Shown: in pieces, positions 18,411 to 49,000 of the stretch
How the letters are laid out: each line of letters begins with the position of its first letter
Position numbering within the stretch: the stretch's first letter is position 1
Assembly: GCF_033441515.1 (NCBI RefSeq)
Contig: NZ_JAWQJT010000001.1
Location: 124,001 to 188,000 of the forward strand
From: Amycolatopsis solani
GTDB lineage: Bacteria; Actinomycetota; Actinomycetes; Mycobacteriales; Pseudonocardiaceae
Reading direction: 5' to 3'
DNA: 64,000 bases
The notes under the pieces: model-generated
Told to the model about the DNA's origin: nothing
The model's input: the letters and a program-made list of their open reading frames with translations, nothing else
The model's database searches: none
Program-made: the position numbers and the translations under genes

Positions 18411-18469
18411 GAGGTCGCGAATGAGTCATTGGGGACCTCTGGGGTCCCGAATGAGTCATTCGCGACCTC
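18411..18469. repeat. AATGASTCATT repeat pair 1 (hairpin)
   Basis: Arms 18411-18437 and 18443-18469 pair at 25 of 27 positions with a 5 nt loop. Each arm contains the 11 bp palindromic core AATGAGTCATT (18420-18430 and 18450-18460) flanked by GAGGTCGCG or its complement. First of three such hairpins between the convergent NUDIX and DUF2332 genes. Confidence 0.85.
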
Positions 18470-18541
18470 GGTAGAGCCGGTGCCGCCGGGGTCGGAGTGC
18501 CGCCGTGACCGGCCGCGGGCTGCAGCGAGAGCCGCCGCAAC

Positions 18542-18594
18542 GTCGCGAATGACTCATTCGCGACCTCCAGGGTCCCCAATGAGTCATTCACGAC
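18542..18594. repeat. AATGASTCATT repeat pair 2 (hairpin)
   Basis: Arms 18542-18565 and 18571-18594 pair with three mismatches. Cores are AATGACTCATT at 18548-18558 and AATGAGTCATT at 18578-18588, again with CGCGACCTC-type flanks. Confidence 0.82.
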
Positions 18595-18690
18595 CTCGGG
18601 GCCGGCGCGCGGGGGTGCCCGCCGCACTGGACCTCGCGGGCCCCGGGCACCCAGTGGCCGCCGTCCTGGGCGCGCTCGGCGGGCCGGCCT

Positions 18691-18749
18691 GATGTCTTGA
18701 ATGAGTCATTCAGGTCGCCGGAGGTCCTGAATGACTCATTCAAGACGTC
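18691..18749. repeat. AATGASTCATT repeat pair 3 (hairpin)
   Basis: Arms 18691-18714 and 18726-18749 pair over 24 bp, with one G-T wobble as the only flaw. Cores are at 18700-18710 and 18730-18740, with GTCTTG / CAAGAC flanks. The loop GTCGCCGGAGG-type sequence recurs in the element upstream of htrA. Confidence 0.85.
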
Positions 18750-18788
18750 CCGGGGTCGAAGCGCCGCCGTGACCGGCAGCGAAGCGGG

Positions 18789-19883
18789 CTAGAGCGGGAG
18801 CCAGGTCATCCGCTGCCCATGCGGGGCGGTCCGCGCCAAGGCGTGCGCCTCCGCCTTCCCGTCCTCCCACCGGACCACGCCCAGCGTCGCCAGCCCGTCC
18901 CCACCGGCAAGGTCCCCCCGGCCAGGCAGAACCTCCTCCAACCCCGCCCCGTAGAACTCCTCCGAAACCCACCACACCGGCCGCGAAGCCGCCAGCGAAG
19001 CGAGCTCCGCGACGAACTCCCCCCGCCGCGAAGCCGACAAGTACGCCAGAGCGTGGCTGGTCACCACCACCAACGGCCCCTCCAGCGACGAAGCCGCCGA
19101 AGCGAAGTCCGAAACCGCGTCCCCGGTGATCAACCGGGGGCGGTGCTTCCCCTGCTCGGCCGCCGCCGTGCGCAGCAAGCGGATCCGGTCCGGCTGGTCG
19201 GCCCACACGCACGCCTCGAGCCACGCAAGCTCGTCCTCGTCCGACAGGTCCACCGGGGCGCGGTCGAGGCCGGCCCGGTCGGTGATCGTCAGCTTCTTCG
19301 GCAGCTTCGGCGTGATCGCGCCCGGCGCCAGGTCCAGCGCGCAGTGCAGGCCGACCGCCGATTTGGCCGGGCCCGCCGTCAGCTGCTCGCCGCCGTCGCA
19401 CTGGTAGCGGTAGCCGAAGCGGTCCAGGCCCAGCAGGAGCCCCGCGCTGCAGCCGACCTCGAGCAGCGCGACCTTGCCGCCCGCCTCGCGCGCCGCCCGG
19501 GCCACGCCCGGGTACAGCAGCGCCGCGCGGCGGACCTCGTTCGTCTGCGTGTAGCGCGACGAAATCAGCGCCCGCGCCTTCTCCGCGCGCTCCAGCAGGA
19601 ACGACCGGAACAGCGGCCACGTCTCCGTGTCGACGCCGTCGAAGCCGCCCAGTGACGGGTAGTAGCGCGACAGCGGGTGGATCGGGTCCGCCTGCACGAG
19701 GCGGTGCGCGGTCGCCATCAGCAGCGTCGCGCGCACCTCGCCGTCGCGGGCGACCGACAGCAGGCCGGCGACGTCGTCGTCCGCGGCCGCCTCCAGCGCC
19801 AGGTGTTCGTAGAGCGGTGAGACCCCGCGGGCCTCGACTTCCGCGAACGTGCGCAGTACTTCCTTGATCGCGTCCAGGTCCAT
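18789..19883 (-). CDS. DUF2332 protein
   Basis: A 364-residue protein of the DUF2332 family, common in actinomycetes. It has an N-terminal helical part (LEAAADDDVAGLL, HPLSRYYPSLGG) and a central Rossmann-like segment with LLEVGCSAGLLLGLDRFGY, which resembles a methyltransferase SAM loop. The later region has VVVTSHALAYLSASRRGEFV and WWVSEEFYG. A SAM-dependent activity is inferred only from that loop. It follows the MaoC gene by 7 nt and is probably in the same operon. Confidence 0.85.
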   Translation of the reverse strand: MDLDAIKEVLRTFAEVEARGVSPLYEHLALEAAADDDVAGLLSVARDGEVRATLLMATAHRLVQADPIHPLSRYYPSLGGFDGVDTETWPLFRSFLLERAEKARALISSRYTQTNEVRRAALLYPGVARAAREAGGKVALLEVGCSAGLLLGLDRFGYRYQCDGGEQLTAGPAKSAVGLHCALDLAPGAITPKLPKKLTITDRAGLDRAPVDLSDEDELAWLEACVWADQPDRIRLLRTAAAEQGKHRPRLITGDAVSDFASAASSLEGPLVVVTSHALAYLSASRRGEFVAELASLAASRPVWWVSEEFYGAGLEEVLPGRGDLAGGDGLATLGVVRWEDGKAEAHALARTAPHGQRMTWLPL

Positions 19884-19890
19884 CAGAGCC

Positions 19891-20394
19891 TCATTCGTGC
19901 GGCACCGGCCGGCCCGGCTGCTCCCCGCCCCGAGTTTCCCCGTAGGAGCGCTTCGGCACCATCACCTTCCGCCGGAAGGTGCACACGATCAGGCCGTCCT
20001 GCTTGTAACCGCGCGTCTCGACGTAGACGACACCGCGGTCGTCCTTCGACTTCGACGGCGTCTTGTCGAGCACCTCGGTCTCGCCGTAGATGGTGTCGCC
20101 GTGGAACGTCGGCTTGACGTGCTTGAGCGACTCGACCTCGAGGTTCGCGATGGCCTTGCCGGAAACGTCGGGCACGGACATGCCCAGCAGCAGCGAGTAC
20201 ACGTAGTTCCCGACCACGACGTTCTTGCCGAAGTCGGTCGTCTCCCCGGCGTAGTGCGCGTCCAGGTGCAGCGGGTGGTGGTTCATGGTGATCAGGCAGA
20301 ACAGGTGGTCGTCGTATTCGGTGACCGTTTTGCCCGGCCAGTGCTTGTAGACCGCACCGACCTCGAACTCCTCGTAGTACCGACCGAACTGCAC
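19891..20394 (-). CDS. MaoC-family (R)-specific enoyl-CoA hydratase-like dehydratase
   Basis: A 167-residue hotdog-fold protein with the MaoC signature: YYEEFEVGAVYKHWPGKTVTEYDDHLFC at the start, then LDAHYAGETTDFGKNVVVG (the D...H dyad region) and the VKPTFHGDTIYGETEV strand. Such enzymes hydrate enoyl-CoA or mesaconyl-type thioesters in lipid or acid catabolism. GTG at 20394 has AGGAGA 7 nt upstream. First gene of an operon with DUF2332, divergent from corA. Confidence 0.88.
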   Translation of the reverse strand: MQFGRYYEEFEVGAVYKHWPGKTVTEYDDHLFCLITMNHHPLHLDAHYAGETTDFGKNVVVGNYVYSLLLGMSVPDVSGKAIANLEVESLKHVKPTFHGDTIYGETEVLDKTPSKSKDDRGVVYVETRGYKQDGLIVCTFRRKVMVPKRSYGETRGGEQPGRPVPHE

Positions 20395-20518
20395 TCGTCT
20401 TCTCCTGTCCGCGGTAACGCCGTGTGAGGCTGGTACGACACGCATCGGTAGTGAGGAGTACCCTCAACCATCGGTTCTCGCGCGTCAACGCGAGCCCCAC
20501 CACTCTGCACCCGGCCCG

Positions 20519-20528
20519 AAGGAGGTGA
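20519..20528 (+). promoter_or_regulatory. consensus Shine-Dalgarno of the corA leader peptide
   Basis: AAGGAGGTGA is fully complementary to the usual 16S rRNA tail and lies 8 nt before an ATG at 20537. It is the strongest ribosome-binding site seen in the window, yet serves only a 22-codon frame. Its GTGAGG (20525-20530) can pair with CCTCAC at 20583-20588. Confidence 0.75.
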
Positions 20529-20536
20529 GGAACCCG

Positions 20537-20605
20537 ATGAGCAGTGGCGATAGTCCGCTCCCTAGTAGTCCCAGCGTTCCCACCTCACGGGTCGTCTCCA
20601 GGTAG
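20537..20605 (+). CDS. corA leader peptide, 22 residues
   Basis: ATG to TAG, encoding MSSGDSPLPSSPSVPTSR plus four more residues. Seven serines and four prolines make up half the peptide. It has a near-perfect Shine-Dalgarno and ends 101 nt before the corA ATG. Its codons 12-15 form one arm of an 11 bp hairpin whose other arm lies after the stop codon, so ribosome position would change the fold. Salmonella corA (corL) and mgtA (mgtL, Pro-rich) are known precedents for leader-peptide control of Mg transport genes. Translation here is inferred from the ribosome-binding site and layout. Confidence 0.62.
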   Translation: MSSGDSPLPSSPSVPTSRVVSR

Positions 20606-20633
20606 GCCTTTTTCACCCCCTCGGGAACGCTGG
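20571..20633 (+). promoter_or_regulatory. attenuator-like hairpin overlapping the leader peptide
   Basis: CCAGCGTTCCC (20571-20581, inside the leader ORF) is perfectly complementary to GGGAACGCTGG (20623-20633, beyond its stop codon). A ribosome paused on the proline-rich half would block the stem. A five-T run (20609-20613) lies in the loop. Confidence 0.6.
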
Positions 20634-20640
20634 TGTCGCC

Positions 20641-20660
20641 GGGCGGACGCGTGTCCGCCC
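20641..20660 (+). promoter_or_regulatory. second hairpin in the corA leader
   Basis: GGGCGGAC-GCGT-GTCCGCCC, a perfect 8 bp stem, 46 nt before the corA ATG. No U tract follows, so it would act as a pause or Rho-related element, not as a classical terminator. Confidence 0.5.
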
Positions 20661-20706
20661 CTGGTCAGTCGTCTCGCACGACCACGCACGACGCCCAGGA
20701 GATCCC

Positions 20707-21795
20707 ATGCCTGCCATTCCTTCGCTCGGCGGCCTTCGCGGCCGCGGCAACAGCCGGGCCAAGGGCGTGCCCGTCCGCCCGGTTCCGGTGCCGCTGTCGG
20801 CGTACGTCGTCGATTGCGCGGTCTACGTCGGCGGTGAGCGCCTGCCCGGCCGCTGGACCCACACCGAAGCCATCAAAGAGGTCCGGAAGCGGCACGAAGG
20901 GTTCGTCTGGATCGGGCTGCACGAGCCGGACGCCGAGCAGATCCAGGGCGTCGCGGACACGTTCGGGCTGCACGAGCTGGCGGTCGAGGACGCGCTCGAA
21001 GCGCACCAGCGGCCGAAGCTCGAGCGCTACGACGACACACTGTTCCTCGTGGTGAAAACCGTCCGGTACGTCGAACACGAGTCCCCCACCACGGCGAACG
21101 AAATCGTCGAGACCGGCGAGCTCATGGTCTTCCTCGGCCGCGACTTCGTCATCACCGTGCGGCACGGGAACCACTCGGGCCTGGCGCGGCTGCGCCGGGA
21201 GCTCGACGACGACGCCGAGCGCCTGCAGCTGGGCCCGGCCGCGGTCGTGCACGCGATCGCCGACCACGTCGTCGACCACTACCTCGACGTCACGGGCCGG
21301 ATCGAGAACGACATCGACGTCATGGAGGCGCAGGTCTTCGCGCCCCGGTCGCAGGTCAGCGCCGAGCAGATCTACCTGATGAAGCGGGAGGTCCTCGAGC
21401 TGCGCCGCGCGGTGATGCCGCTGGCGACGCCGGTCCAGCGCCTCGCTGAGGGCTACACCCGGCTGGTGCCGGACGAGGTCCGCTCCTACTTCCGCGACGT
21501 CGCCGACCACCTCACGACCGTGTCCGAACGGGTGGCGGCGTTCGACGAACTGCTGTCCACACTGGTCGACGCGACGGTCGCGAAGATTTCGCTGCAGCAG
21601 AACACCGACATGCGCAAGATCACGTCGTGGGCGGCGATCATCACCGTGCCGACGATGATCGCCGGCATCTACGGCATGAACTTCGACTACCTGCCCGAAC
21701 TGCACTGGAAGTTCGGGTACCCGCTGGTGATCACCGTGATCCTCGGCATCTGCCTGTTGCTGTACCGAATATTCCGGAAGAACGGCTGGCTCTAG
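20707..21795 (+). CDS. corA: CorA-family magnesium/cobalt transporter
   Basis: A 362-residue divalent cation channel. The large cytoplasmic alpha/beta funnel occupies about 30-300 (GFVWIGLHEPDAEQ, ELAVEDALEAHQRPKLERYDDTLFLV). Two C-terminal helices (about 305-322 and 338-354) flank the signature YGMNFDYLPELHW, with GMN at 323-325, the selectivity filter. It ends in the usual basic tail RIFRKNG. ATG at 20707 has AGGAGA 5 nt upstream. It has a leader peptide and attenuator-like hairpins upstream and a 38-residue membrane protein gene 42 bp downstream. Position matches Rv1239c beside sugABC, now 10 kb away. Confidence 0.95.
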   Translation: MPAIPSLGGLRGRGNSRAKGVPVRPVPVPLSAYVVDCAVYVGGERLPGRWTHTEAIKEVRKRHEGFVWIGLHEPDAEQIQGVADTFGLHELAVEDALEAHQRPKLERYDDTLFLVVKTVRYVEHESPTTANEIVETGELMVFLGRDFVITVRHGNHSGLARLRRELDDDAERLQLGPAAVVHAIADHVVDHYLDVTGRIENDIDVMEAQVFAPRSQVSAEQIYLMKREVLELRRAVMPLATPVQRLAEGYTRLVPDEVRSYFRDVADHLTTVSERVAAFDELLSTLVDATVAKISLQQNTDMRKITSWAAIITVPTMIAGIYGMNFDYLPELHWKFGYPLVITVILGICLLLYRIFRKNGWL

Positions 21796-21837
21796 GTCCC
21801 CTTTCTTTCCACCGGAATCAGTGCAGGAGAATTCGTG

Positions 21838-21954
21838 ATGCCCCGGATGCTGTCCAACCTCAAGTTCTGGGCGCTCGCGCTCAGCGTGCTCTGGATCGTC
21901 GTCATCACTTTCGTCATCGTCGCCGACCCGGGGTTCGCGCACGGGATGAAATGA
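21838..21954 (+). CDS. 38-residue single-helix membrane protein downstream of corA
   Basis: A small frame with ATG at 21838 and AGGAGA 7 nt upstream. It encodes MPRMLSNLKF, one 20-residue hydrophobic helix (WALALSVLWIVVITFVIVA) and a short DPGFAHGMK tail. It lies 42 bp after corA on the same strand with no terminator between, so it is probably co-transcribed. E. coli and Salmonella use similarly small membrane proteins (MgtS, MgtR) to stabilise or degrade Mg transporters; a like role here is inference. Confidence 0.68.
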   Translation: MPRMLSNLKFWALALSVLWIVVITFVIVADPGFAHGMK

Positions 21955-21979
21955 CGCCCGGGGGTCGTACCCTGGGTGG

Positions 21980-22630
21980 GTGCCCAAAGCGCTGGTGGTC
22001 TCCGACGAGGTCGACGAGCGGTTGTGGACCGGCGCGGTCCGCGCCGTCTCCGTCGACCTCGTCATCGGTGCCGGCGACCTCCCCTACGACTACCTGGCGT
22101 TCCTGGCCGGCGCGCTCGACGTGCCGTGCGTGTTCGTGCCCGGCAACCACGACCCGGACCTGAGCGGTTACACGCGCTACGGCGGGCTGTCCATGAAGGA
22201 CGGTTTCCCCACGGCCTGGCCGGGCCCGGCGGGCGGCGTCAACGCGGACGGCCGGGTCGTCGACGTCGCCGGGCTGCGCATCGCCGGGCTGGGCGGCTCG
22301 ATCCGCTACAACGACGGGCCGAACCAGTGGACGCAGCGCCAGCAGGCGCGCCGCGCCCGCGCCCTGGTGCGGCGGGCGAAGTGGCGGCGCCGCCGTGACG
22401 GCCGTGCCGTCGACGTCCTGCTGACGCATTCGCCGCCGCTCGACCTCGGCGACCGGGCGGACCCGCCGCACCGCGGGTTCGCGTGCCTGCACCGGACGAT
22501 CGACGTGCTGCGCCCGAAGTGGTTGCTGCACGGGCACATCCACCCCCACGGCGAGCCGGTGCCGGACCGGGTCGTCGGCGAAACCCGCGTCCGCAACGTG
22601 GTGGGCCACCGGATCATGGAGTTTTCATGA
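21980..22630 (+). CDS. calcineurin-like metallophosphoesterase
   Basis: A 216-residue metallophosphoesterase. Metal motifs are VVSDEVD (reduced form of DxH), IGAGDLPYDY, PGNHDPDLS, LLTHSPPLD and HGHIHPHG. The usual first D-x-H is altered (SDEVD), which may change the metal centre. It overlaps the following ParB-like gene by ATGA, a strong coupling. GTG at 21980 follows the small membrane ORF by 25 nt. Confidence 0.85.
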   Translation: MPKALVVSDEVDERLWTGAVRAVSVDLVIGAGDLPYDYLAFLAGALDVPCVFVPGNHDPDLSGYTRYGGLSMKDGFPTAWPGPAGGVNADGRVVDVAGLRIAGLGGSIRYNDGPNQWTQRQQARRARALVRRAKWRRRRDGRAVDVLLTHSPPLDLGDRADPPHRGFACLHRTIDVLRPKWLLHGHIHPHGEPVPDRVVGETRVRNVVGHRIMEFS

Positions 22631-23466
22631 AGGAGACGGGATTCCCCCGCGCCGACGCGGAAAACGACTTCCTCCGCGCGCGCCGGGGCCAGGTGCTTTC
22701 ACGGCTCTCGACGTGGCTTCGCCGCGAGCCCGACGACGTCAACATCATGCTGCCGTTCCACGAAGTCGTGGAGGCGCTCGGCTACCTCGGCGAGCACCGG
22801 ATCGGGCGGCGGGTGATCAAGCTGGACTCGATCGTCGGCACGGTCGACCGCAGCCGCGACTTCGACCGCCGCTTCCGCCCGACGTCCGCCCGCGTCCGCG
22901 AACGCTGGGAACGCCTGGCGCTGGCCTCGCGCCGCGGCGAAGAGATCCCGCCGATCGAGGTGTACCGCGTCGGCGAGCTGCACTTCATCATCGACGGCCA
23001 CCACCGGGTTTCGGTCGCGATCGCGCAGGGACTGTCCACAATAGAGGCCGAAGTGACGGTAGTCCGGACCAAACTGGACCCGAGCGGCATCCGCCACCGC
23101 GGCGACCTGATCGTCAAGGACTACCGGCGCCTGTTCCTCGAGCGGGTTCCCCTGACGGGCCACGCGCGGGCGTCGGTGATCGTGACGGACCCGTGGGACT
23201 ACGCGCGGCTGGGCGAGCACGTGGAGGCGTGGGGCTTCCGGCTGATGCAGGACGAGGGCAAGTTCTCCGACCGGGCGAGCGTGGCGCAGCGGTGGTTCGA
23301 CGAGGAGTTCGTCCCGGTGGTGGCGATGCTGCGGCAGGCCGACCTGATCGGCGACCGGACCGACGCCGAGGCGTACATGTGGGTGGCGGCGGAGCGGTAC
23401 CGGCTGATCCGGACCCACCGCTGGGACGACGAGGTCATCGAGACGCTGCGGTCCCGGCAGCACTAG
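22627..23466 (+). CDS. ParB/Srx-fold protein
   Basis: A 279-residue protein whose central region has the ParB-N/sulfiredoxin motif HFIIDGHHRVSVAIAQG, preceded by IPPIEVYRVGELHF. The N-terminus holds DVNIMLPFHEVVEALGY and the C-terminal third is helical and charged. It lacks a ParB DNA-binding HTH, so chromosome partitioning is unlikely; nucleotide hydrolysis or kinase-like chemistry as in other ParB/Srx proteins is possible. It is translationally coupled to the metallophosphoesterase. Function unknown. Confidence 0.78.
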   Translation: MKETGFPRADAENDFLRARRGQVLSRLSTWLRREPDDVNIMLPFHEVVEALGYLGEHRIGRRVIKLDSIVGTVDRSRDFDRRFRPTSARVRERWERLALASRRGEEIPPIEVYRVGELHFIIDGHHRVSVAIAQGLSTIEAEVTVVRTKLDPSGIRHRGDLIVKDYRRLFLERVPLTGHARASVIVTDPWDYARLGEHVEAWGFRLMQDEGKFSDRASVAQRWFDEEFVPVVAMLRQADLIGDRTDAEAYMWVAAERYRLIRTHRWDDEVIETLRSRQH

Positions 23467-23555
23467 AAGCGCCCCAATGTGGCGTTGGTTGCGTCCAACG
23501 CACCCAATGTGGCGTTCGGTGCGTCTGACGCACCGAACGCCACATTGGGGCGCTT
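23467..23555. repeat. three-copy palindromic repeat between convergent genes
   Basis: The sequence CCCAATGTGGCGTT occurs as two direct copies (within 23467-23486 and at 23503-23516) and once inverted (23536-23549). The second and third copies form a perfect 23 bp stem (23503-23525 with 23527-23549) with a one-base centre; the first copy can pair with the same right arm over 20 bp (23467-23486 with 23536-23555). Mutually exclusive hairpins are therefore possible. Likely bidirectional terminator. Confidence 0.72.
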
Positions 23556-23565
23556 GGGGCCGGCG

Positions 23566-24306
23566 TCAGAAGTCCAGCCCGGGTGTCAGCGCCAGCTGGC
23601 GCACCTGCGCCTCGGTCAACGTCGGGTCCGGGCGCTGTCCCGGCAGCCGCACCCCCGACCGCTCCAGCACCCCGCTGTTGTTCGACCAGAACTGCACCAT
23701 CACGCCCGGCCCCGCCCGCGAGACCCGGTGGGTCAGCACCTCACCCGAGCGCAACGTCGACCGCCACAGCTCCCCCTGGGGCGTCCGTTCCGTCCGGCAC
23801 GAAACCTCCCCCGCCTCGCCGCACGCCGGCCCGCCGAAGCCGCCCGGCAGCATCAGCACGTACACCGAGCCCGAGCCCTGGGCGTCCGTCACCCGGACGC
23901 CCAGGTGGAACAACGCGTCCCGGGGCGCGTCGCCCGCCGGGTCGGCGATCAGGTGGAACGGGTCCGACGGCGGGGTCTCGCCGGGGATCGTCAGCCGCGT
24001 GATCCGCGCGTCCGGGGAAACCAGCGCGCGGATCGCGCGGCCCACCACGCAGCTCAGCCGGTCGGTCAGCGCCTCCCGCGTGTCCGACGCCGTGGGGCAC
24101 GGGACGTCCGCCACCTGACCCCGGTGCGGCAGGACCACCACGGTCAGCACCAGCGCGAGCAGCACCACCGCCAGCGCCGCCGCTCCCGTCAGCAGGTGAC
24201 GGCGGCGAGACGCGCGGGCCGCCGAGAGAACCGCGTCGCCGGACAGGCCGATCGGGGGCTCGTCTTCGGTCACGTACGCCGTCAGCAAGGACCGGACGTC
24301 TTCCAT
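23566..24306 (-). CDS. putative anti-sigma factor-like membrane protein
   Basis: A 246-residue protein. Residues 1-35 are cytoplasmic with an Arg-rich stretch (AARASRRRHL), then one membrane helix (LLTGAAALAVVLLALVLTVVVL) and an extracytoplasmic domain of about 185 residues with paired cysteines (VPCPTASD, LSCVVG, PACGEAGEVSC). Its start overlaps the ECF sigma gene stop by one base (TGATG), the classic sigma/anti-sigma layout. No zinc-binding HxxxCxxC motif is present, so the anti-sigma role rests on context. Confidence 0.72.
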   Translation of the reverse strand: MEDVRSLLTAYVTEDEPPIGLSGDAVLSAARASRRRHLLTGAAALAVVLLALVLTVVVLPHRGQVADVPCPTASDTREALTDRLSCVVGRAIRALVSPDARITRLTIPGETPPSDPFHLIADPAGDAPRDALFHLGVRVTDAQGSGSVYVLMLPGGFGGPACGEAGEVSCRTERTPQGELWRSTLRSGEVLTHRVSRAGPGVMVQFWSNNSGVLERSGVRLPGQRPDPTLTEAQVRQLALTPGLDF

Positions 24307-24800
24307 CACCACTCCTCGCTCGTCGGCGCCGGCAGGGCCGCGCGCAGGGCTTCGACCCCGCGGGACGTCTGGGACTTCACCGTGCCTTCGGCGACACGCA
24401 GCAGCGCCGCCACCTCGGCCACCGGCAGGTCCTCCAGGAACCGCAGGACGACCATCGCGCGCTGCCTCGGCGTCAGGCCGTCCAGCGCCCGCTCGACGTC
24501 GAGGCGCAGCGGGGTGTCCCGGCCCGGTGGCGACGCCGGCTCGGGCGGTGACGACGTCACGTACTCCCGCCCCGATTTCCGCCGCCCGGCGAGGAAGAGG
24601 TTCAGCAGGACGCGGCGCGCGTACGCGTCGACCGTGTCCGGCCGCACCCGGCGCCACCGGCGGTACAGCTGGACGAACATCGCCTGCACGAGGTCCTCCG
24701 CGCCGTGCCAGTCGCCGCACAGGGCGAACGCCACCCGGCGGAACCGCTGGACCCGCGCGGCGAAGTATTCGCTGAAATCGAGGTCTCTCGACGCCCCCAC
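24306..24800 (-). CDS. ECF sigma factor, SigE-family (short)
   Basis: A 164-residue ECF sigma factor. Region 2 shows FALCGDWHGAEDLVQAMFVQLYRRW, and region 4 shows LTPRQRAMVVLRFLEDLPVAEVAALL with the HTH VAEGTVKSQTSRGVEALR. It belongs to the short actinobacterial group often named SigE-family but distinct from true SigE at 47.4 kb. GTG at 24800 has AAGGAGG upstream. It is coupled to the membrane protein just downstream, its probable partner. Confidence 0.9.
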   Translation of the reverse strand: MGASRDLDFSEYFAARVQRFRRVAFALCGDWHGAEDLVQAMFVQLYRRWRRVRPDTVDAYARRVLLNLFLAGRRKSGREYVTSSPPEPASPPGRDTPLRLDVERALDGLTPRQRAMVVLRFLEDLPVAEVAALLRVAEGTVKSQTSRGVEALRAALPAPTSEEW

Positions 24801-27593: not shown

Positions 27594-27597
27594 CGCG

Positions 27598-27634: not shown

Positions 27635-27637
27635 GTC

Positions 27638-31275: not shown

Positions 31276-31277
31276 CG

Positions 31278-31325
31278 GGTCGTGAGTGGCAAGTCGGGTT
31301 AGAACCCGACTTGCCACTCACGACC
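31278..31325. terminator. 23 bp inverted repeat (TCGTGAGTG family, copy A)
   Basis: Arms 31278-31300 and 31303-31325 are perfectly complementary with a two-base centre. The arms read GGTCGTGAGTGGCAAGTCGG and so on, and closely match the element at 54073-54120. It fills the gap between the convergent lipoprotein and sugC genes and is a likely bidirectional terminator. Confidence 0.72.
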
Positions 31326-31337
31326 GCGGCGGCAGAC

Positions 31338-36414: not shown

Positions 36415-36597
36415 CACCTGCGCACTCGTGGTCTCGGGCGTCCATCTTGTCAAGAAGGCCGGAACCGTGCGAGCCGCTTACCCCGAAAGGCCGGACCGCG
36501 TGGGACTTCGCCGAGCGAACCGGCGGCCAGCGACGCGAATCGAGCAGGAGATCACCAGACCTCCCCCGCCCCTCGTCCTCGCCGCCCTTCAGTCGGC

Positions 36598-36643
36598 GGT
36601 CGAGCTTGTCAAGGCACGCTTTCCCGCCTTGACAAGCTCGACC
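36598..36643. repeat. 18 bp inverted repeat in the 36.4-37.0 kb gap
   Basis: GGTCGAGCTTGTCAAGGC (36598-36615) is perfectly complementary to 36626-36643, with a 10 nt loop. The dyad extends outwards with few mismatches (TCAGTCGGC against GCCGGCGGCTGA), and further GC-rich arms (about 36562-36580 and 36655-36680) also pair. A CTTGTCAAG variant lies at about 36447. Confidence 0.68.
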
Positions 36644-36778
36644 GGCGGCTGAAAACTCCGCGAGGAGGGGCGGGGGATGTCGAGGCCGCCACCTTTGGGC
36701 GAAAAGATGTCCTCGCCGGACAGGCAGGCTCTGGGATGACCTGCCGTCCCGCTGCTCACCCACCTTGCGCGGTGGGTC

Positions 36779-36924
36779 GCTGGGTGGTCATCCCGTCGCC
36801 TGAGCGAGGCCTATCACTTTGAGCCGGGCCCGCAAGCTTGCGTTGTTCTCTCGCGTTGGTCTCTGTGTTGCGGGCCCGGCTCAAAGTGATTTGACGGCCT
36901 CAGGCGACGGGATGACCACCCAGC
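36779..36924. repeat. 57 bp inverted repeat (large stem-loop)
   Basis: Arms 36779-36835 and 36868-36924 are the same length (57) and match at about 49 positions; all differences fall in one 9-position block in the middle. The outer 26 and inner 23 positions are perfect (outer part reads GCTGGGTGGTCATCCCGTCG). The loop is 32 nt. It lies downstream of the acyl-CoA dehydrogenase and upstream of the stress-protein gene, both minus strand. It may be a terminator or a mobile-element remnant; no transposase is present. Confidence 0.78.
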
Positions 36925-36984
36925 TCTTTTTCAAGCCCGTGGAGGTCCATTTGTCGACACGGCGACAATCGCCGTCCGGGTAAC

Positions 36985-41184: not shown

Positions 41185-41194
41185 TGTCAGCGGC

Positions 41195-42472: not shown

Positions 42473-42974
42473 GCCGACTTCGGGACGGCGGCTCGACCAG
42501 CCCCGCGGCCAGAACCGGTTCAGGCTGAACATCGACCCCGATTCGTTCGGCCGGTTCACCGAGCGGATCGCGCGGTTCCTCGGCACCGGGAAGTACCTGT
42601 TCTGGCAGACGCTGATCGTGATCGTCTGGATCGTGCTGAACCTGGCGGCGGTGTCGCTGCGCTGGGACCCGTACCCGTTCATCCTGCTCAACCTGGCGTT
42701 TTCGACGCAGGCGGCGTACGCGGCGCCGCTGATCCTGCTCGCGCAGAACCGGCAGGACGACCGCGACCGCGTCTCCCTGGAGGAGGACCGGAACCGGGCA
42801 CTGCAGACGAAAGCCGACACGGAATACCTGGCCCGGGAGCTGGCGGCGCTGCGGCTGGCGGTCGGCGAGGTGGCCACGCGGGACTACCTGCGCAGCGAGC
42901 TGGACCGGCTCCGGGAGGACCTTTCCGTGAAGCCCAGGAAGGCCAAGGCGGACCGGGGCGCTACCGGTACGTAA
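42465..42974 (+). CDS. DUF1003 membrane protein
   Basis: A 169-residue protein of the DUF1003 family (Rv1231c position). Two helices (YLFWQTLIVIVWIVLNLAAV and FILLNLAFSTQAAYAAPLIL) with the conserved RWDPYPFILLNLAFS motif, then AQNRQDDRDRVSLEEDRN and a C-terminal coiled coil. Coupled to the MgtE-like protein by an 8 nt overlap, which suggests a complex, perhaps in Mg or envelope homeostasis. Confidence 0.9.
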   Translation: MPEPTSGRRLDQPRGQNRFRLNIDPDSFGRFTERIARFLGTGKYLFWQTLIVIVWIVLNLAAVSLRWDPYPFILLNLAFSTQAAYAAPLILLAQNRQDDRDRVSLEEDRNRALQTKADTEYLARELAALRLAVGEVATRDYLRSELDRLREDLSVKPRKAKADRGATGT

Positions 42975-42984
42975 CATGGGCGGG

Positions 42985-44130
42985 GTGACCAGTACGCAGC
43001 AGCTCCCCAGCGTCGACGACGTCCGCAGCGCGCTGAAGAGCGTGCAAGACCCGGAGATCCGCAAACCCATCACGGACCTGGGGATGGTCAAGGACGTGGT
43101 CGTCGGCGACGACGGCGTCGTGACGGTCGGGATCTACCTGACGGTCGCGGGCTGCCCGCTGAAGGCGACGCTGACCAACGACACGAAGGAAGCCGTCTCG
43201 AAGCTCCCCGGCGTCGCGGACGTGCGCGTCGAGCTCGACGTCATGAGTGACGAACAGCGCTCCGAGCTGCGGAAGTCGCTGCGCGGGGACGCGGCGGAGC
43301 CGGTGATCCCGTTCGCGCAGCCGGGCTCGATGACCCGCGTGTACTGCGTGGCCTCGGGCAAGGGCGGCGTCGGCAAGTCGTCGGTCACGGTGAACCTGGC
43401 CGCGGCGATGGCCGCGCGGGGCCTGTCGGTCGGCGTCGTGGACGCGGACATCTACGGCCACTCGATCCCCCGCATGCTGGGCGCGCGCGAGAAGCCGACC
43501 AAGGTCGACACGATGATCATGCCGCCGCAGTCCCACGGCGTGAAGGTGATCTCGATCGGCATGTTCACCCCGGGCAACACCCCGGTGGTGTGGCGCGGCC
43601 CGATGCTGCACCGCGCGCTGCAGCAGTTCCTCGCCGACGTGTTCTGGGGCGACCTCGACATCCTGCTGCTGGACCTGCCGCCGGGCACCGGTGACATCGC
43701 GATCTCGGTGGCCCAGCTGATCCCGAACGCGGAGATCCTGGTCGTCACGACCCCGCAGCAGGCGGCGGCCGAGGTGGCCGAGCGCGCGGGCGCGATCGCG
43801 CTGCAGACGCGCCAGCGCGTGGCGGGCGTCATCGAGAACATGTCGTGGCTGGAGCAGGCCGACGGCTCCCGGCTCGAGCTCTTCGGCGCCGGCGGCGGCC
43901 AGACGGTGGCCGACTCGCTGACGAAGTCGATCGGCTCCGAGGTCCCGCTGCTCGGCCAGGTCCCGATGGACCCGCGGGTGGTCGCCCAGGGCGACGCGGG
44001 CACACCGATCGTGCTGTCCGAGCCGGAGGCGCCCGCGTCGGCGGTGCTGAACGACGTCGCGAAGAAGCTTTCGGTCCGGGCCCGCGGCCTGGCGGGGATG
44101 ATGCTGAACGTGACGCCGGCCGGCCGCTGA
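42985..44130 (+). CDS. mrp: Mrp/ApbC-family P-loop ATPase (Fe-S cluster carrier)
   Basis: A 381-residue protein. The N-terminal MIP18/DUF59 domain (1-95) is followed by the deviant Walker A GKGGVGKSSVTVNLAA, then VDADIYGHSIPRMLG, LLLDLPPGTGDIAIS and VTTPQQAAAEVAERAG. The CXXC that bridges a 4Fe-4S cluster in Nbp35/ApbC dimers is missing: after ENMSW the sequence continues LEQADGSRLELFG, as I recall for mycobacterial Mrp. GTG 42985 is preferred; ATG 42976 would add three residues. It begins 10 nt after the DUF1003 gene. Confidence 0.93.
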   Translation: MTSTQQLPSVDDVRSALKSVQDPEIRKPITDLGMVKDVVVGDDGVVTVGIYLTVAGCPLKATLTNDTKEAVSKLPGVADVRVELDVMSDEQRSELRKSLRGDAAEPVIPFAQPGSMTRVYCVASGKGGVGKSSVTVNLAAAMAARGLSVGVVDADIYGHSIPRMLGAREKPTKVDTMIMPPQSHGVKVISIGMFTPGNTPVVWRGPMLHRALQQFLADVFWGDLDILLLDLPPGTGDIAISVAQLIPNAEILVVTTPQQAAAEVAERAGAIALQTRQRVAGVIENMSWLEQADGSRLELFGAGGGQTVADSLTKSIGSEVPLLGQVPMDPRVVAQGDAGTPIVLSEPEAPASAVLNDVAKKLSVRARGLAGMMLNVTPAGR

Positions 44131-44143
44131 TCTTCCTGCCGGA

Positions 44144-44177
44144 CACTGAAGGCCACCCCGCGGGGTGGCCTTCAGTG
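44144..44177. terminator. perfect 17 bp palindrome between mrp and tatB
   Basis: CACTGAAGGCCACCCCG (44144-44160) is immediately followed by its exact complement (44161-44177). It sits in the 49 bp between two convergent genes and is probably a bidirectional terminator. Confidence 0.75.
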
Positions 44178-44179
44178 CG

Positions 44180-44590
44180 TCAGGTGGCGTCCGGGTCGAT
44201 CGGGGGGCGCTCCCCCGGCTTCAGCGGCTCCGGCTGGGACTGGGTCTGCCCGACCGTCGTGCCGTTCGAGCCGTTGGTTCCGTTGGTCCCGTTCGTGATG
44301 CCCTTGAGGCCGAGCGGGTCCGCGTCGCCGTCGAAGAGGTGCTGGGTCACCACGCGCTTGGGGTCGAAGTTGCGCAGCCCGCGCAGGTCCTCGAGGGGTT
44401 TGCGGAGCTGGTCGAACTCCGGGCCCATCTCCTCGCGCAACTGCTCACGCGCACCCGTCGCGAAGTCGCGGACCTTCTTCACGCTCTTCGCCAGCCAGGA
44501 CGCCGCCTCGGGGAGGCGTTCCGGGCCGAGGATGAAGAGACCGGCGATGATGAGGACGAGGATTTCGCCCCACCCGACGCTGTCGAACAC
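44180..44590 (-). CDS. tatB: Sec-independent translocase subunit TatB
   Basis: A 136-residue TatB. The membrane helix at about 3-20 ends in the conserved LGPERLPE motif, followed by an amphipathic helix ([18 protein letters not shown]) and an extended acidic region. The C-terminus has short NGT repeats ([12 protein letters not shown]). GTG at 44590 has GGAGG 6 nt upstream. Next to htrA as in Rv1223-Rv1224. Confidence 0.93.
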
Positions 44591-44668
44591 CAGTCAACCT
44601 CCGCAGCTGAACCTACCCGCCCAGGGTACCCGCAGCCCGCCGTGCGCCGGCAGGCCGAACGCGGGAAC

Positions 44669-46183
44669 TCAGTCGGAAGCCAGGGTTACGTCCACGACGA
44701 AGCTCGCGCCATCGCGGGCCAGTGACACCGGGACCACTTCGCCGACGTCGTGGGCGCGGACCGCGACCGTCAGTTCCGCGGAGTCGCGGACCAGCCGGTT
44801 GCCGATCTTCGTGATCACGTCGCCCTCCTTGATGCCCGCGTTGGCGGCCGGGCCGCCGGGGGCGACGTTCTTGACCTGCGCGCCCATCGTGGACGAGCCG
44901 GCGACCGTCGACGACGCGTTGATGCCGATGTCCGCGTGCTGGACCTTGCCGTCCTTGATCAGCGACTTCGCGATCTTGATCGCGTAGTCGCTCGGGATGG
45001 CGAAGCCGATGCCGATGCTGCCGCCGTCCGCGCTGGACGAGCGGATCGACGAGTTGATGCCGACCAGCGCACCGGTGGAGTCGACGAGCGCGCCGCCCGA
45101 GTTGCCGTGGTTGATCGCGGCGTCGGTCTGGATGGCTTCGTAGGTGACCGGCGGGGCGCCGCTGTCGCCGCCCGCGGTGATCGGCCGGTTCAGCGCGCTG
45201 ACAATGCCCGCGGTGACGGAGTTCTGCAGCGCCAGCGGCGAGCCGATCGCCATCACGGTGTCGCCGACCTGCAGGTCGGCGGACTTGCCGATCTGCAGCA
45301 CGGTCGGGTTGGTGACGTTCACCTTCACGACGGCGAGGTCGGTCTTCTGGTCGGCGCCGACGAGCTTGGCCTCGGTGCGGGTGCCGTCGACGAAGATCGC
45401 GGTCACCTTGACGCCCGGGTCCGCGGCGGCGGAGGCGATGACGTGCTCGTTGGTGAGGATGTAGCCCTGCGGGTCGATCATCACGCCGGAGCCCTGCTCA
45501 CCGGACTCGGCGCCGGGCTTGAAGACCTCGAGTGAAACGACGGCAGGCGCGACGCGCTTGGCGATCTCCGCCACCGAACCGGCCGGACGCTCCTTCGCGG
45601 CCTCGGCTTCGGAGATCGTCGCGGACCCGGTGAGCTCGGTGCCGGTGTCGGCGACCCACCAGCCGACGAGGCCGCCGGCCGCGCCGACGAGCAGCGCGAC
45701 GACGCCGAGCAGAGCCAGCGCCTTCGGCTGCACGCGACGTCCGAAGAGCAGCTCGGGCAGGCTGAGCAACGCTCCCGGCGGCCGTTTGGCGGGCTTTTCC
45801 TCTTCCTCGGCGGGCATCGCGGGCCCGGCCAGCACGGCCCCGGCACCCGGATCGCGCCACGGGTCGCTCGTGCTGTGCCAGAGCGGCGGATCGGCTTCCT
45901 TCGGGTCACCGGTGGCTTCCCGCGGCCGCTCGAGCAGCACACCCTCGGCCCCAGGCGGCCGCCGGAAGGCTTCGGCGAGCGACTCGGGCGCGGGCGGCGC
46001 GAGGTTGACGCCGTTGGCCTTCTGCGGGCTGTAGAGCTTGTCGAACGCCCCGTCGACCCCCTGCGGCCGCCCGAACACGGCGGCCTGGGCCGGATCGACG
46101 GCGGGCCGCGCGAGCGGCCGCGGACCCAGCCTGTCGGCATCACGCGCGCCGGGCTGCTCGGGATTCACGTTCGGCTCGGTCAT
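44669..46183 (-). CDS. htrA: membrane-anchored HtrA/DegP serine protease
   Basis: A 504-residue protease. A proline-rich cytoplasmic N-terminus of about 150 residues precedes one membrane helix (about 155-177), the trypsin-like domain with triad H247 (NEHV), D282 (KTDLAVVK) and S362 (GNSGGAL), and one PDZ domain (about 410-500). It degrades or refolds damaged envelope proteins. It lies downstream of sigE-rseA but separated from rseA by a 612 bp gap filled with a repeat element. No SigE-type promoter was seen directly upstream. ATG 46183 or 46186 are alternatives. Confidence 0.93.
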   Translation of the reverse strand: MTEPNVNPEQPGARDADRLGPRPLARPAVDPAQAAVFGRPQGVDGAFDKLYSPQKANGVNLAPPAPESLAEAFRRPPGAEGVLLERPREATGDPKEADPPLWHSTSDPWRDPGAGAVLAGPAMPAEEEEKPAKRPPGALLSLPELLFGRRVQPKALALLGVVALLVGAAGGLVGWWVADTGTELTGSATISEAEAAKERPAGSVAEIAKRVAPAVVSLEVFKPGAESGEQGSGVMIDPQGYILTNEHVIASAAADPGVKVTAIFVDGTRTEAKLVGADQKTDLAVVKVNVTNPTVLQIGKSADLQVGDTVMAIGSPLALQNSVTAGIVSALNRPITAGGDSGAPPVTYEAIQTDAAINHGNSGGALVDSTGALVGINSSIRSSSADGGSIGIGFAIPSDYAIKIAKSLIKDGKVQHADIGINASSTVAGSSTMGAQVKNVAPGGPAANAGIKEGDVITKIGNRLVRDSAELTVAVRAHDVGEVVPVSLARDGASFVVDVTLASD

Positions 46184-46315
46184 CATTCCCCGGTGCAGAA
46201 GAAGATCAGGTGGCTGGGCGTGACGATACCCAAGCCCAGTGCTCCGAGTCTGCCGGTCCGGCGGTGAAGTGGCTGTTTCTTGGGCTACGGCGGGGAGGGG
46301 CGACGCTCACCGGAT

Positions 46316-46637
46316 GTCTTGAATGACTCATTCCTGTCGCCGGAGGACAGGGTCCCGGCAAAGTCGCGTGTGCGCGATCGGCCGGATCCGCCGCGATGTT
46401 GTGAACGACCCGTTCACGACGCTCGGGCCACCGATCCCCGGACGCCACCTCCCGCACACCGAGCGGCTTGCCGAAGGCGGCGTCGCGAATGACTCATTCG
46501 GGACCTCCAAAGCCGCCAATGACTCATTCGCGACCTCGCTCGAACTGCCCACTCCGCCTGCCGGCGGTGAAGCGAGCCGAGGCCGGCGACTTTGCCGGGA
46601 CCCTGTCGCCGGAGGACTTGAATGAGTCATTCAAGAC
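46316..46637. repeat. 322 bp element with 51 bp terminal inverted repeats (AATGASTCATT family)
   Basis: Ends 46316-46366 and 46587-46637 are both 51 bp and inverted: GTCTTGAATGACTCATTC at the outer ends and CAGGGTCCCGGCAAAGTCG at the inner ends match exactly (outer core reads AATGAGTCATT on the right). In between, a 16 bp CCTGTCGCCGGAGGAC lies in the same orientation in both ends (46333-46348, 46602-46617), as if flipped in one arm. Inside are two more cores (46488-46498, 46518-46528), forming a hairpin, and a variant GTGAACG-ACC-CGTTCAC (46401-46417). No coding sequence was seen within it. Confidence 0.78.
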
Positions 46638-46693
46638 ACCCCGAGACCCGCCGGGCCCGGACACGACCTTGCCGGCCCCCGCGCGAGGTCCTG

Positions 46694-46704
46694 AATGAGT
46701 CATT
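46694..46704. repeat. additional AATGAGTCATT copy
   Basis: A single core flanked by GGTCCTG and CAGGGC, 57 bp beyond the 322 bp element and 95 bp from the rseA stop. Fits the same family but has no near partner. A separate weak hairpin at about 46752-46783 may end rseA transcription. Confidence 0.7.
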
Positions 46705-46798
46705 CAGGGCACTGGGCTGATCCGCGGCGGCCCGCCCGCTCCGGACACGACGAAGGCCGCCACGGGGGGGTTCCTCGCGACGGCCTCGGTCAAGCTGT

Positions 46799-47449
46799 TC
46801 AGCGGATGCCGGCGGGTACCGCGGCGGGTGACGTGCTCACCGGGATCGACTTCGGCGCCGGCTGCGGGGGCACCGCCAGCTGGGCCGGGAGCAGGTTCGC
46901 CGGCTGCGGTGCGCCGCCGCCCTGCTCGGGGCTGCCGTCGCCGTCCGCGGACGTGCCGACCAGCGCCAGCGCGCTCAGCACCAGGCCGGACACGACGACA
47001 CCCGCGCCCTGGGCCGCGCGGCGCTTGAAGCGGCCGCCGCCGAGGACGTTCGGGGACTGGCCCAGCGGAGCCGACGACCCCAGCGGCGCCACGCCGCCCA
47101 GCACGCCGGAGTCACGCAGGCCCGCGACCCGGTCGGGGCGCTGGACCGCGACCAGCTGGCCGTCGGCCGTGATCGCCAGGTTGTCCGGGGTGCCCGGCAG
47201 CTCCGTGTGCTGCGGGATCGACTGCAGGCTCGCCAGGAACCCCGCCGACATCGAGGGGGCGCCGGCGTGCCGGATCGCGTCGACCGCCTGCCGCTGGGCG
47301 CGGACCTCGGCCGCGCACGCCTGGCAGCGCGTGATGTGCGACGCCGCGCGGTCGCGGGCGCCGTGCGAAAGCTCTCCGTCCACGAACGCCACCACGACGT
47401 CCGGCAGCAAGTGCGACTCGGGGAGTCCCCAGCCTCGCGGTGCGGTCAT
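46799..47449 (-). CDS. rseA: anti-sigma-E factor RseA
   Basis: A 216-residue ZAS-type anti-sigma factor. The zinc motif HITRCQAC (H38, C42, C45) is intact; the following region has the [19 protein letters not shown] segment. A hydrophobic stretch at about 150-165 ([17 protein letters not shown]) may be a membrane anchor, and the tail is Pro/Ala-rich. The ATG overlaps the sigE stop by 4 nt. Confidence 0.9.
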
Positions 47450-48057
47450 ACCGACACCTTCGCAGACTCCGGTGCGTAAGCGCGCCGTCGCTCGAGCGAA
47501 GCGCGCAACGCCTGGCGGCCGCGGTGGATCCGGCTGCGGACGGTGCCCAGCTTGACACCGAGCGTCGCGCCGATCTCCTCGTACGACAGGCCCTCGACGT
47601 CACACAGCACGACCGCGGCGCGGAACTCCGGGGGCAGCTCGTCGAGCGCCGCCTGCAGGTCGGGGTCCAGGTGGGTGTCCGTGTAGACCTGCTCGGGGCT
47701 CGGGTCGTCGCCCACGATGCGGTCGGTGTCCTCGGGCAGGCCTTCCATCCGCACGCGCGAGCGGCGGCGGGCCATGTCCAGGAAGAGGTTGGTGGTGATC
47801 CGGTGCAGCCAGCCCTCGAACGTGCCCGGCTTGTACGACGCCAGCGAGCGGAAGACCCGGATGAAGGTCTCCTGCGTCAGGTCCTCGGCGTCGTGGGTGT
47901 TGCCGGTCAGGCGGTAGGCGAGCCGGTAGACCCGGTCGCCGTGTTCGCGCACGACCTCGTCCCAGGACGGCGGCGTCCAAGTCGCCTCGTCCAGGGTCAC
48001 CGGCTGAGCCCCGGCGTCGGCAACGGCGTTCTGCATGGCGGGAGCAGGCACCTCCAT
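47446..48057 (-). CDS. sigE: ECF sigma factor SigE
   Basis: A 203-residue ECF sigma factor. Region 2 ([40 protein letters not shown]) and region 4 ([20 protein letters not shown] followed by the [23 protein letters not shown]) are complete. ATG 48057 has AGGAGA 7 nt upstream and lies about 20 nt after the predicted SigE-type promoter; a GTG at 48081 would overlap the -10 box. Coupled to rseA. Controls envelope-stress genes in mycobacteria. Confidence 0.94.
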
Positions 48058-48083
48058 CTGCGTCTCTCCTGTCTGCTCCACCC

Positions 48084-48110
48084 AACGCGGGCCTCGGCCA
48101 CGGTGTTCCC
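48084..48110 (-). promoter_or_regulatory. ECF-type autoregulatory promoter of sigE
   Basis: On the minus strand, GGGAACA (-35, 48110-48104) and CGTT (-10, 48087-48084) are separated by 16 nt, fitting the SigE-type consensus GGAAC-N15/16-CGTT. Transcription would start near 48077, giving a 20 nt leader to the ATG at 48057. Confidence 0.55.
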
Positions 48111-48247
48111 GTGTGTCTGGATTTCAGTCTGTCGGGGTTCCTTATGGTTCTAGTGAGACTGGACTGAGAGCAGGCTGAGAAGTTCTTCCCGGGTGCTTAC
48201 CCGGGAGCCTGCGAGGATTTATCGACAACCAACGCTAACCTCCGTGC

Positions 48248-48892
48248 GTGAACACGCCCACCCCTGCGGCCGCGCCGGCCGATTCCGGGTTCGTCGACGG
48301 GTACCTGCCCGACGACGAAGTGCTGTCTTCGGCGCGCGCACGGGCCGAAGACCTGGGCTGCGTCCCGCTCAGCGCGGGCGCGGGCGCGACGTTGCGCTTC
48401 CTGGCCGCGACGCTGCGGGCGAAGGCGGTCGTCGAGGTCGGCACGGGCGCCGGCGTCAGCGGGCTGAGCCTGCTGCGCGGCATGGCCCCCGACGGCATCC
48501 TGACCTCGATCGACGTCGAGCCGGAGTACCAGCGGGCCGCGCGCGCGACGTTCCGCGAGGCCGGCTACGCGCCGGGCCGCACGCGCCTGATCATCGGGCG
48601 GGCGCTGGACGTCCTGCAGCGGCTCACGCCGGGCGGGTACGACCTGGTGTTCGTCGATTCCGCGCACATCGAGTACCCGGGGTGCTACGAGCTGGGCGTG
48701 TCGCTGCTGCGGCGGGGCGGGATCATCGCGTTCCACAACGTGCTGGCGGGCGGCCGGGTGATCGACCCGTCCCACCGCGACCCGGAGACGCTGGCGCTGC
48801 GCGAGGTGGCGCGAGCGTTCCGCGAGGACGACCGCCTGGTCCCGGCGTTGCTCCCGGTGGGCGGCGGGCTGCTGGTCGCGGCCGCGATCTGA
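48248..48892 (+). CDS. class I SAM-dependent O-methyltransferase (Rv1220c type)
   Basis: A 214-residue methyltransferase of the catechol-O-methyltransferase-like group. SAM-binding motifs are VVEVGTGAGVSGLSLLRGM, LTSIDVEPEYQRAARATF and YDLVFVDSAHIEYPGCY. The second catalytic metal ligand position reads AFHNVLAGG where many relatives have VDNVL, so metal dependence is uncertain. It is divergent from sigE, as in Rv1220c-Rv1221. GTG at 48248. Confidence 0.9.
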   Translation: MNTPTPAAAPADSGFVDGYLPDDEVLSSARARAEDLGCVPLSAGAGATLRFLAATLRAKAVVEVGTGAGVSGLSLLRGMAPDGILTSIDVEPEYQRAARATFREAGYAPGRTRLIIGRALDVLQRLTPGGYDLVFVDSAHIEYPGCYELGVSLLRRGGIIAFHNVLAGGRVIDPSHRDPETLALREVARAFREDDRLVPALLPVGGGLLVAAAI

Positions 48893-48947
48893 CTCAGCTG
48901 TCCACAACCTCGCGAGCCTGTGCACAACTCGCGTTTGCTCCGCCAAG

Positions 48948-49000
48948 GTCGCGAATGACTCATTGGGGACCTCGGAGGTCCCCAATGAGTCATTCGCGAC
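48948..49000. repeat. AATGASTCATT repeat pair 4, perfect 25 bp stem
   Basis: Arms 48948-48972 and 48976-49000 are perfectly complementary with a CGG loop; cores at 48954-48964 and 48984-48994. Flanks match pair 1 (GTCGCG and GGGGACCT). It separates the convergent methyltransferase and MFS genes. Confidence 0.87.

Follow-up and report, generated by a model that had tools for sequence, protein, structure and literature searches.

Interchangeable REP-like hairpins at gene 3' ends of Amycolatopsis, probably spread in part by an ISAs1-type miniature element

The window studied here is a stretch of 64,000 nucleotides (C1:124001-188000) of the 10.28-Mb genome of Amycolatopsis solani, in which the palindrome AATGASTCATT (S being G or C) recurs in clusters between genes. 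Our analysis makes it probable that these palindromes form hairpins of ~60 nt at gene 3' ends that resemble repetitive extragenic palindromic (REP) elements, are exchanged between species, would serve as transcript ends in both directions and are spread in part by a miniature inverted-repeat transposable element (MITE) of the ISAs1 type. One AATGASTCATT unit consists of two arms positioned 30 bp apart from start to start, each of them nearly palindromic in itself, and the two arms also pair with one another over 24-27 nt. An earlier note on this DNA had described 13 cores in three intergenic clusters, too dense for chance and mostly arranged as inverted pairs with stems of 24-27 bp. Indeed, all 13 exact cores fall into the three clusters (18420-18740, 46322-46704 and 48954-48994), compared to 0.09 expected from dinucleotide shuffles, none of 100 shuffles reached 13, and stems of 24-27 nt were found; five pairs in the window show a spacing of exactly 30 bp. 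The second core type that the note had seen in two of these regions, TGAACGAYCCGTTCA, is present in two copies at 46402 and 49056. Across the whole genome we counted 521 cores and none of the reversed pattern used as control, which is far from a chance count. The hairpins and arms in the window are the following, none of them assigned to a strand.

18411..18469, no strand: pair 1, cores 18420 and 18450, with GTCGCG-type flanks, forming one hairpin
18534..18602, no strand: pair 2, cores 18548 and 18578, arms 81% complementary over 32 nt
18691..18749, no strand: pair 3, cores 18700 and 18730, with GTCTTG-type flanks and 24-nt arms that are 96% complementary
46322..46631, no strand: pair 4, split by the MITE, one interrupted 30-bp-spaced pair with arms 46322-46332 and 46621-46631
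46402..46416, no strand: TGAACGACCCGTTCA arm within the MITE, a sequence match
46477..46539, no strand: pair 5, cores 46488 and 46518, cargo of the MITE, arms 86% complementary
46690..46713, no strand: lone AATGAGTCATT arm, core 46694, with CCTG..CAGG flanks
48948..49000, no strand: pair 6, cores 48954 and 48984, a 26-bp perfect stem (z -10.8)
49056..49070, no strand: TGAACGATCCGTTCA arm, a sequence match
48937..49084, no strand: pair 6 together with the TGAACGATCCGTTCA arm, a composite found again as full-length or partial copies in the sister genomes G069 and G025

The arms of pair 1 (18411-18437 and 18443-18469) are 93% complementary with a minimum free energy of -52.1 (z -7.9). Its cluster occupies the spacer 18379-18788 between the convergent genes of a NUDIX protein (17917-18378, plus strand) and a DUF2332 protein (18789-19883, minus strand), and pair 6 likewise lies between convergent genes, encoding an O-methyltransferase and an MFS protein.

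The extragenic position proposed by the earlier note holds beyond the window, as none of 81 sampled cores lay within a predicted gene, with 409,485 of the 464,000 sampled bases called coding (21 stretches, 10 of them selected because copies were present). The gene caller placed these cores in 53 tandem, 20 convergent and 8 divergent spacers; adding the NUDIX gene that it had missed makes six of the tandem cores convergent. Counted per spacer and species over 328 kb against up to four sister genomes, arms with one or the other core were present in 9 of 114 cases for convergent spacers, in 9 of 441 for tandem spacers (five of these at the NUDIX junction, which is really convergent) and in 2 of 198 for divergent spacers. 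Strong hairpins of any sequence (stem score of at least 12, spacers of 25-400 nt) occurred between convergent genes in 58 of 78 spacers, between tandem genes in 42 of 248 and between divergent genes in 2 of 172, and the mean of three shuffles reached a score of 12 in 0.00 of spacers. Junction C1:141780, where the caller missed the NUDIX gene, was left out of this count and of the identity comparison below. The stems of the 58 convergent hairpins, from three genomes, start near the two stop codons, the median distances being 7 and 9.5 nt.

Comparison with sister genomes, whose compared genes show 94-95% identity, reveals that these sites turn over. Divergent spacers have a median identity of 0.93 between the source genome and each of G025, G017 and G069, and tandem spacers of 0.89-0.93, whereas convergent spacers reach only 0.54, 0.55 and 0.61, respectively. 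From this low convergent and high divergent identity we conclude that the hairpins are exchanged. A strong hairpin on both sides despite less than 60% identity was found in 13 of 31 convergent versus 1 of 18 tandem comparisons. Orthologous gene-end hairpins are thus replaced by other hairpins between species, and the comparison of orthologous junctions that the earlier note had proposed bears this out, since the same sites often hold different hairpins in sister species. Two convergent spacers of the window illustrate this.

31276..31337, no strand: convergent spacer with a differently sequenced hairpin in each of five species, some with a common end
3402..3467, no strand: convergent spacer with an AATGASTCATT pair in G025 and two other hairpin kinds in the other four species

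The spacer 48893-49091, which holds pair 6, measures 199 bp in the source genome, 158 bp in G017, 88 bp in G069 and 1 bp in G042.

Because the hairpins are scarce in spacers on the promoter side, have stems that adjoin stop codons and take each other's places, we infer that they may end or protect transcripts from both sides, either by termination or by blocking decay from the 3' end. Standing close behind stop codons, chiefly between convergent genes, they would act on transcripts arriving from both directions. A stable hairpin just past the stop codon, as expected of an intrinsic terminator, is present.

The second cluster connects these hairpins to a mobile element, which lies between the two arms of pair 4.

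46348..46605, no strand: ISAs1-type MITE of 258 bp with inverted ends CAGGGTCCCGGCAAAGTCGC / GCGACTTTGCCGGGACCCTG and no transposase gene inside
46337..46347, no strand: left copy of the 11-bp target duplication, TCGCCGGAGGA, identical to 46606-46616
46606..46616, no strand: right copy of the 11-bp target duplication, identical to 46337-46347

Deleting 46348-46616, i.e. the 258-bp insert together with one 11-bp copy, brings the arms at 46322 and 46621 back to a distance of 30 bp, and the joined flanks fold at -44.6 kcal/mol. With the MITE in place, the stretch is predicted to fold into a single nested structure. The MITE end motif has 28 matches in the source genome, corresponding to 15 two-ended elements (at most 4 mismatches in the second end) plus 6 single ends. 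An exact AATGASTCATT pair is carried as cargo by 11 of the 15 elements, and exact arms stand on both outer sides of 7 and on one side of 3. At the G025 loci, which were selected for two nearby ends, arms of the more general form TGAA-N7-TTCA flank the element on both sides in 10 of 13 cases, and all 12 G025 elements without an IS110 gene contain AATGASTCATT arms (11 with two arms, 1 with one). The G017 elements, selected in the same way, have such arms in 5 of 7 cases. One MITE insertion in G017 corresponds to an empty site in both the source genome and G025. The repeat flanking this G017 insertion measures 15 bp, and that of the G069 insert at the same site 11 bp; an 18-bp repeat around a G069 insert at C1:3417 was not counted as a target duplication, as this insert resembles a portion of the end of a different gene. 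Taken together, MITEs insert into hairpins and carry hairpins as cargo.

As to a mobilising enzyme, the earlier note had suggested a search for a transposase with matching ends, which succeeded in part: the MITE with ends CAGGGNYCCGGCAAAGTCG is of the ISAs1 type, and the transposase was found in sister species but not in the source genome. In the sister genomes, elements of 1233-1349 bp (one of 1521 bp) with the same ends as the MITEs encode an ISAs1-family transposase. One such protein, L306, matches NF033564 (1.5e-54), PF01609 and PF13808, and its element shares the ends CAGGG..CCGGCAAAGTCG with the MITE of the window. A search of the genus with the L306 protein gave matches in 20 of 80 genomes, many of them fragments, and no match in the source genome, where 23 of 28 first-look candidate places were scored. 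Members of the ISAs1 family normally produce target duplications of 8-10 bp. The duplication in the window is exactly 11 bp, and 11 of 13 distinct full-length ISAs1 copies are flanked by an exact duplication of 10-12 bp, the remaining two (L386 and L389) having none of at least 9 bp. L386 (G075:C4) lies by a further end-like sequence and a long C run. Another candidate, L297, a span of 1459 bp between end-like sequences, contains no recognisable transposase-like frame and was set aside unsearched. Likewise rejected as a mobiliser was an IS110-family gene in G025 (L315:2267-3532; 421 aa, NF033542 6e-75), which lies inside one MITE beside its inner AATGASTCATT arm with a 3-bp overlap and which we read as a passenger.

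Most of the full-length copies with such a duplication sit between short GC stems such as GCCCCC..GGGGGC, with the duplicated bases forming the loop. A comparable hairpin exists in the window.

51254..51276, no strand: GC hairpin GCCCCC..GGGGGC, resembling the loop target sites of full-length ISAs1 copies in sister genomes

Altogether, 34 distinct insertions have exact duplications of 9-12 bp, 24 of them of 11 bp. The flanks around these insertions pair at a mean of 6.5 of 10 positions compared to 3.4 when shifted, with at least 8 of 10 in 12 of the 34; the 11 full-length ISAs1 copies among them pair at 4-7 of 10. An open-access literature search yielded no paper on hairpin targeting by ISAs1 among the matches listed.

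These observations would fit a sequence of events in which the ISAs1-family transposon and its MITEs enter hairpin loops, usually with an 11-bp duplication, and bring further hairpins as cargo, so that part of the copies would spread by nesting of hairpin into hairpin. A MITE that brings a hairpin into such a loop would lengthen the hairpin at the site, and such nesting may be tolerated since the element supplies its own hairpins. Copies that lack MITE ends would stem from MITEs that have decayed or from copy-to-copy conversion. Going further, we tentatively raise the idea, which we hold to be possible but doubtful, that this DDE transposon family might read hairpin structure over sequence, cutting at stem-loop junctions such that the 11-bp duplication is the loop, and carrying fresh hairpins, with each insertion keeping the gene end sealed and creating new landing sites. 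If so, gene-end hairpins would be a self-renewing and exchangeable population, in which the core of each lineage is set by its last expansion.

Several observations weigh against REP-like transcript-end hairpins that are partly spread by MITEs. Eight of the 81 sampled cores lie in spacers labelled divergent by the caller, and the sister genomes have arms in two divergent spacers. In G073, four insertions that have exact duplications pair at only 3-4 of 10 positions, i.e. they have no stem, and a hairpin is therefore not required as a target; loop targeting is a strong preference in some genomes and no rule. Only 42 of the 521 cores lie in or beside a recognised MITE (25 arms inside and 17 sides with an adjoining arm). 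The MITE end motif occurs in 30 of 80 genus genomes, and its association with the core is weak (13 of 23 core-bearing versus 17 of 57 other genomes; Fisher p 0.04, uncorrected for ancestry). G030, G031 and G069 contain 238, 213 and 162 cores, respectively, and no exact MITE end, in a search that misses one-base variants such as those of G029, where the transposase is present and the ends read CAAAGTCTT. Finally, no U-tract follows the AATGASTCATT stems, with a mean of 1.46 T in 8 nt compared to 1.29 expected and at least 4 T in 0 of 72 tails; among convergent hairpins in general (58 hairpins, three genomes), at least 4 T occur in only 5 of 116 tails. According to passages of a study of Streptomyces (PMC8780764), ~25% of the mapped 3' ends of S. 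avermitilis have a U-rich motif, and U-lacking ends are weaker terminators whose stability is no better than that of random intergenic positions. The gene-end hairpins described here resemble those U-lacking 3' ends, as far as these passages go, although the Streptomyces ends were mapped from transcripts and the Amycolatopsis hairpins are known from sequence alone. Since U-lacking Streptomyces ends are weaker, the missing U-tract weakens the plain label of terminator, while a 3'-end role is still compatible.

The same counts bear on an alternative that we regard as rather unlikely, namely multiplication of gene-end hairpins through conversion between copies or through template switching, with ISAs1 MITEs as incidental passengers favouring GC-rich loops. 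The ~92% of cores away from recognised MITE ends, the three core-rich genomes that have no exact MITE end and the hairpins of different flank type that the inserts of G017 and G069 enclose at a common site speak for it. However, homology alone offers no explanation for sites where one hairpin has been replaced by an unrelated one, and pair cargo in 11 of 15 elements of the source genome as well as in 12 of 12 gene-free G025 and 5 of 7 G017 elements (the latter two sets selected for two nearby ends) speaks against mere passengers. In G069, many copies of the composite 48937-49084 occur, some of them adjoining a MITE-end fragment, with no clear outer boundary.

The architecture of the arms is shared far beyond the window. 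In 464 kb of sequence from the source genome (81 cores, located in 14 stretches), consecutive cores are spaced by exactly 30 bp in 36 of 67 cases. In sister species, the same places hold arms with other centres, e.g. TGAACGACCCTTTCA, and the form TGAA-N7-TTCA-N15-TGAA-N7-TTCA was found in 54 of 80 genus genomes at 3378 places (maximum 471 in one genome) and in 89 of 390 genomes of the family Pseudonocardiaceae, covering 19 of 46 genera, with the reversed control at 0 in every genus and family row. In a sample of the class, 4 of 394 genomes have it, namely the source genome and three others that show 2-3 places each, and the reversed control has 1 place in each of four other genomes. The N15 spacer accounts for the 3378 places versus 150 for all 25 spacers N16-N40 together in the same 80 genomes, a total that includes separate units lying close together by chance. 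The search pattern fixed TGAA, TTCA and N15; positions 2 and 6 of N7, which it left free, are G and C in nearly all rows listed. The N7 centre otherwise varies between lineages and inside single genomes, and the exact form GAATGASTCATTC is present in 23 of 80 genus genomes with 1 to 584 copies each. AATGASTCATT is thus one lineage form of a TGAA-N7-TTCA / N15 / TGAA-N7-TTCA family across Pseudonocardiaceae.

Whether one unit is a single long hairpin or two short ones was approached through the flanks of 36 pairs of the source genome. Between the two arms of a pair, 0.80 of cells are complementary in the outer flanks (reshuffled 0.70) and 0.73 in the inner flanks (reshuffled 0.64), and the flanks of single arms self-pair in 0.72 and 0.69 (reshuffled 0.64 and 0.61). 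None of 1000 shuffles reached any of these four values, though kinship of the copies inflates such tests, and this modest covariation of the arms does not sharply separate the two forms. The self-pairing of each arm, together with the sharp 30-bp period and the near-palindromic 15-bp arms, would also suit double-strand sites for a DNA-binding protein of the nucleoid or of segregation, with 30 bp being about three helical turns and two dimers sitting on one face. We find this improbable, as several N7 centres exist, both across lineages and in a single genome, hairpins without the AATGASTCATT core occupy the same places in sister species and the flanks pair across the two arms.

The resemblance to REP elements and bacterial interspersed mosaic elements (BIMEs), noted earlier for the window, stands as far as it concerns short, extragenic, palindromic and paired repeats that number in the hundreds and lie mainly at gene 3' ends, but does not extend to membership in the families mobilised by REP-associated tyrosine transposases (RAYTs). 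That a RAYT or other Y1 transposase moves these repeats has next to no probability, for although copy number, paired inverted layout and extragenic 3'-end position would agree with it (521 cores, 0 of 81 genic, 30-bp pairs), in a search for a RAYT, as the note had advised, the profile PF01797 matched in 0 of 80 genus genomes, source genome included, and in 5 of 14 control genomes, and GT[AG]G or its complement stands beside the arms in 15 of 81 flanks versus 0.28 of random windows, i.e. without enrichment. CGTC or GACG was present in 45 of 81 flanks versus 0.41 of random windows and not in all arms. The GTAG and CGTC super-families of REPs are treated in Di Nocera et al. 2013 (PMC3733652), parts of which describe, as here, hundreds of short palindromes in opposite-orientation pairs, located downstream of genes where the neighbouring genes are convergent or unidirectional, and with lineage-specific sequence. 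Unlike REPs and BIMEs, the Amycolatopsis repeats occur without a RAYT in the genus and without an enriched GTAG tag, and their near-palindromic arms combine a fixed 30-bp period with a freely variable centre and an ISAs1 MITE as partial vehicle.

Insertion sequence (IS) elements that choose repeated palindromes as targets, like the ISAs1 MITE of Amycolatopsis, are described in parts of Tobes and Pareja 2006 (PMC1525189) for the IS3, IS110, IS4, IS256 and IS5 families. ISAs1 is not mentioned in that text, and in Amycolatopsis the duplicated bases are the loop and the insert is mostly a MITE that carries the same kind of hairpin as its target. The elements agree with the ISAs1 family (NF033564) in a profile match far above cut-off in sister genomes and in inverted ends identical to those of the MITEs; they differ by loop preference and hairpin cargo, neither of which was found in the open-access literature search among the matches listed. 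A further parallel is IS621, a bridge-RNA-guided member of the IS110 family that targets REP elements of E. coli, as passages of PMC11208160 describe; one IS110-family gene of G025 lies beside an AATGASTCATT arm as IS621 lies in REPs. Unlike IS621, this is a single case and a passenger, not the origin of the 11-bp duplications.

REP-like gene-end hairpins with an ISAs1 MITE as one means of spread would provide GC-rich Actinobacteria with a counterpart of REP systems that needs no RAYT, and would explain why convergent spacers turn over between species of such high identity while promoter-side spacers stay. They raise the questions of whether a DDE transposase chooses its target by DNA hairpin structure and whether actinobacterial transcript ends come from a mobile, interchangeable stock of hairpins. 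No paper on these Amycolatopsis repeats was found in the open-access literature search among the matches listed. A search of the window against Rfam gave 0 matches at the gathering score, and over 8 element loci it gave 5 microRNA-type matches, all sub-threshold.

Further features were observed beside these hairpins. A 32-nt direct repeat with 91% identity (18486-18517 and 18750-18781) adjoins AATGASTCATT pairs of the first cluster. In the region 44669-48081, the second cluster is bordered on one side by the gene of an HtrA-like protease and on the other by that of an RseA-like anti-sigma factor, which adjoins sigE; the SigE model scored above its cut-off and the HtrA and RseA models matched below theirs. 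Triple arms at the 30-bp period occur at G161:C3:19384 and 19414, G009:C1:5539541 and 5539571, and G014:C1:239667 and 239697, which suggests that the unit is extendable past a pair. In G014, runs of N lie between hairpin arms (C1:4326377-4326446, 1981638-1981707 and 7263536-7263634), one of them beside TCTTCCGATCT, which we take to be an Illumina adapter end; the hairpins seem to produce assembly faults in this genome. Lastly, the spacer 36418-36984 of the window contains a stretch of several hundred bases with long inverted repeats (GGATGACCACCCAGC, CACTTTGAGCCGGGCCCGCAA), which is present in G017 and G031, missing from G025, G069, G042 and G065, and perhaps represents another mobile or structured element.

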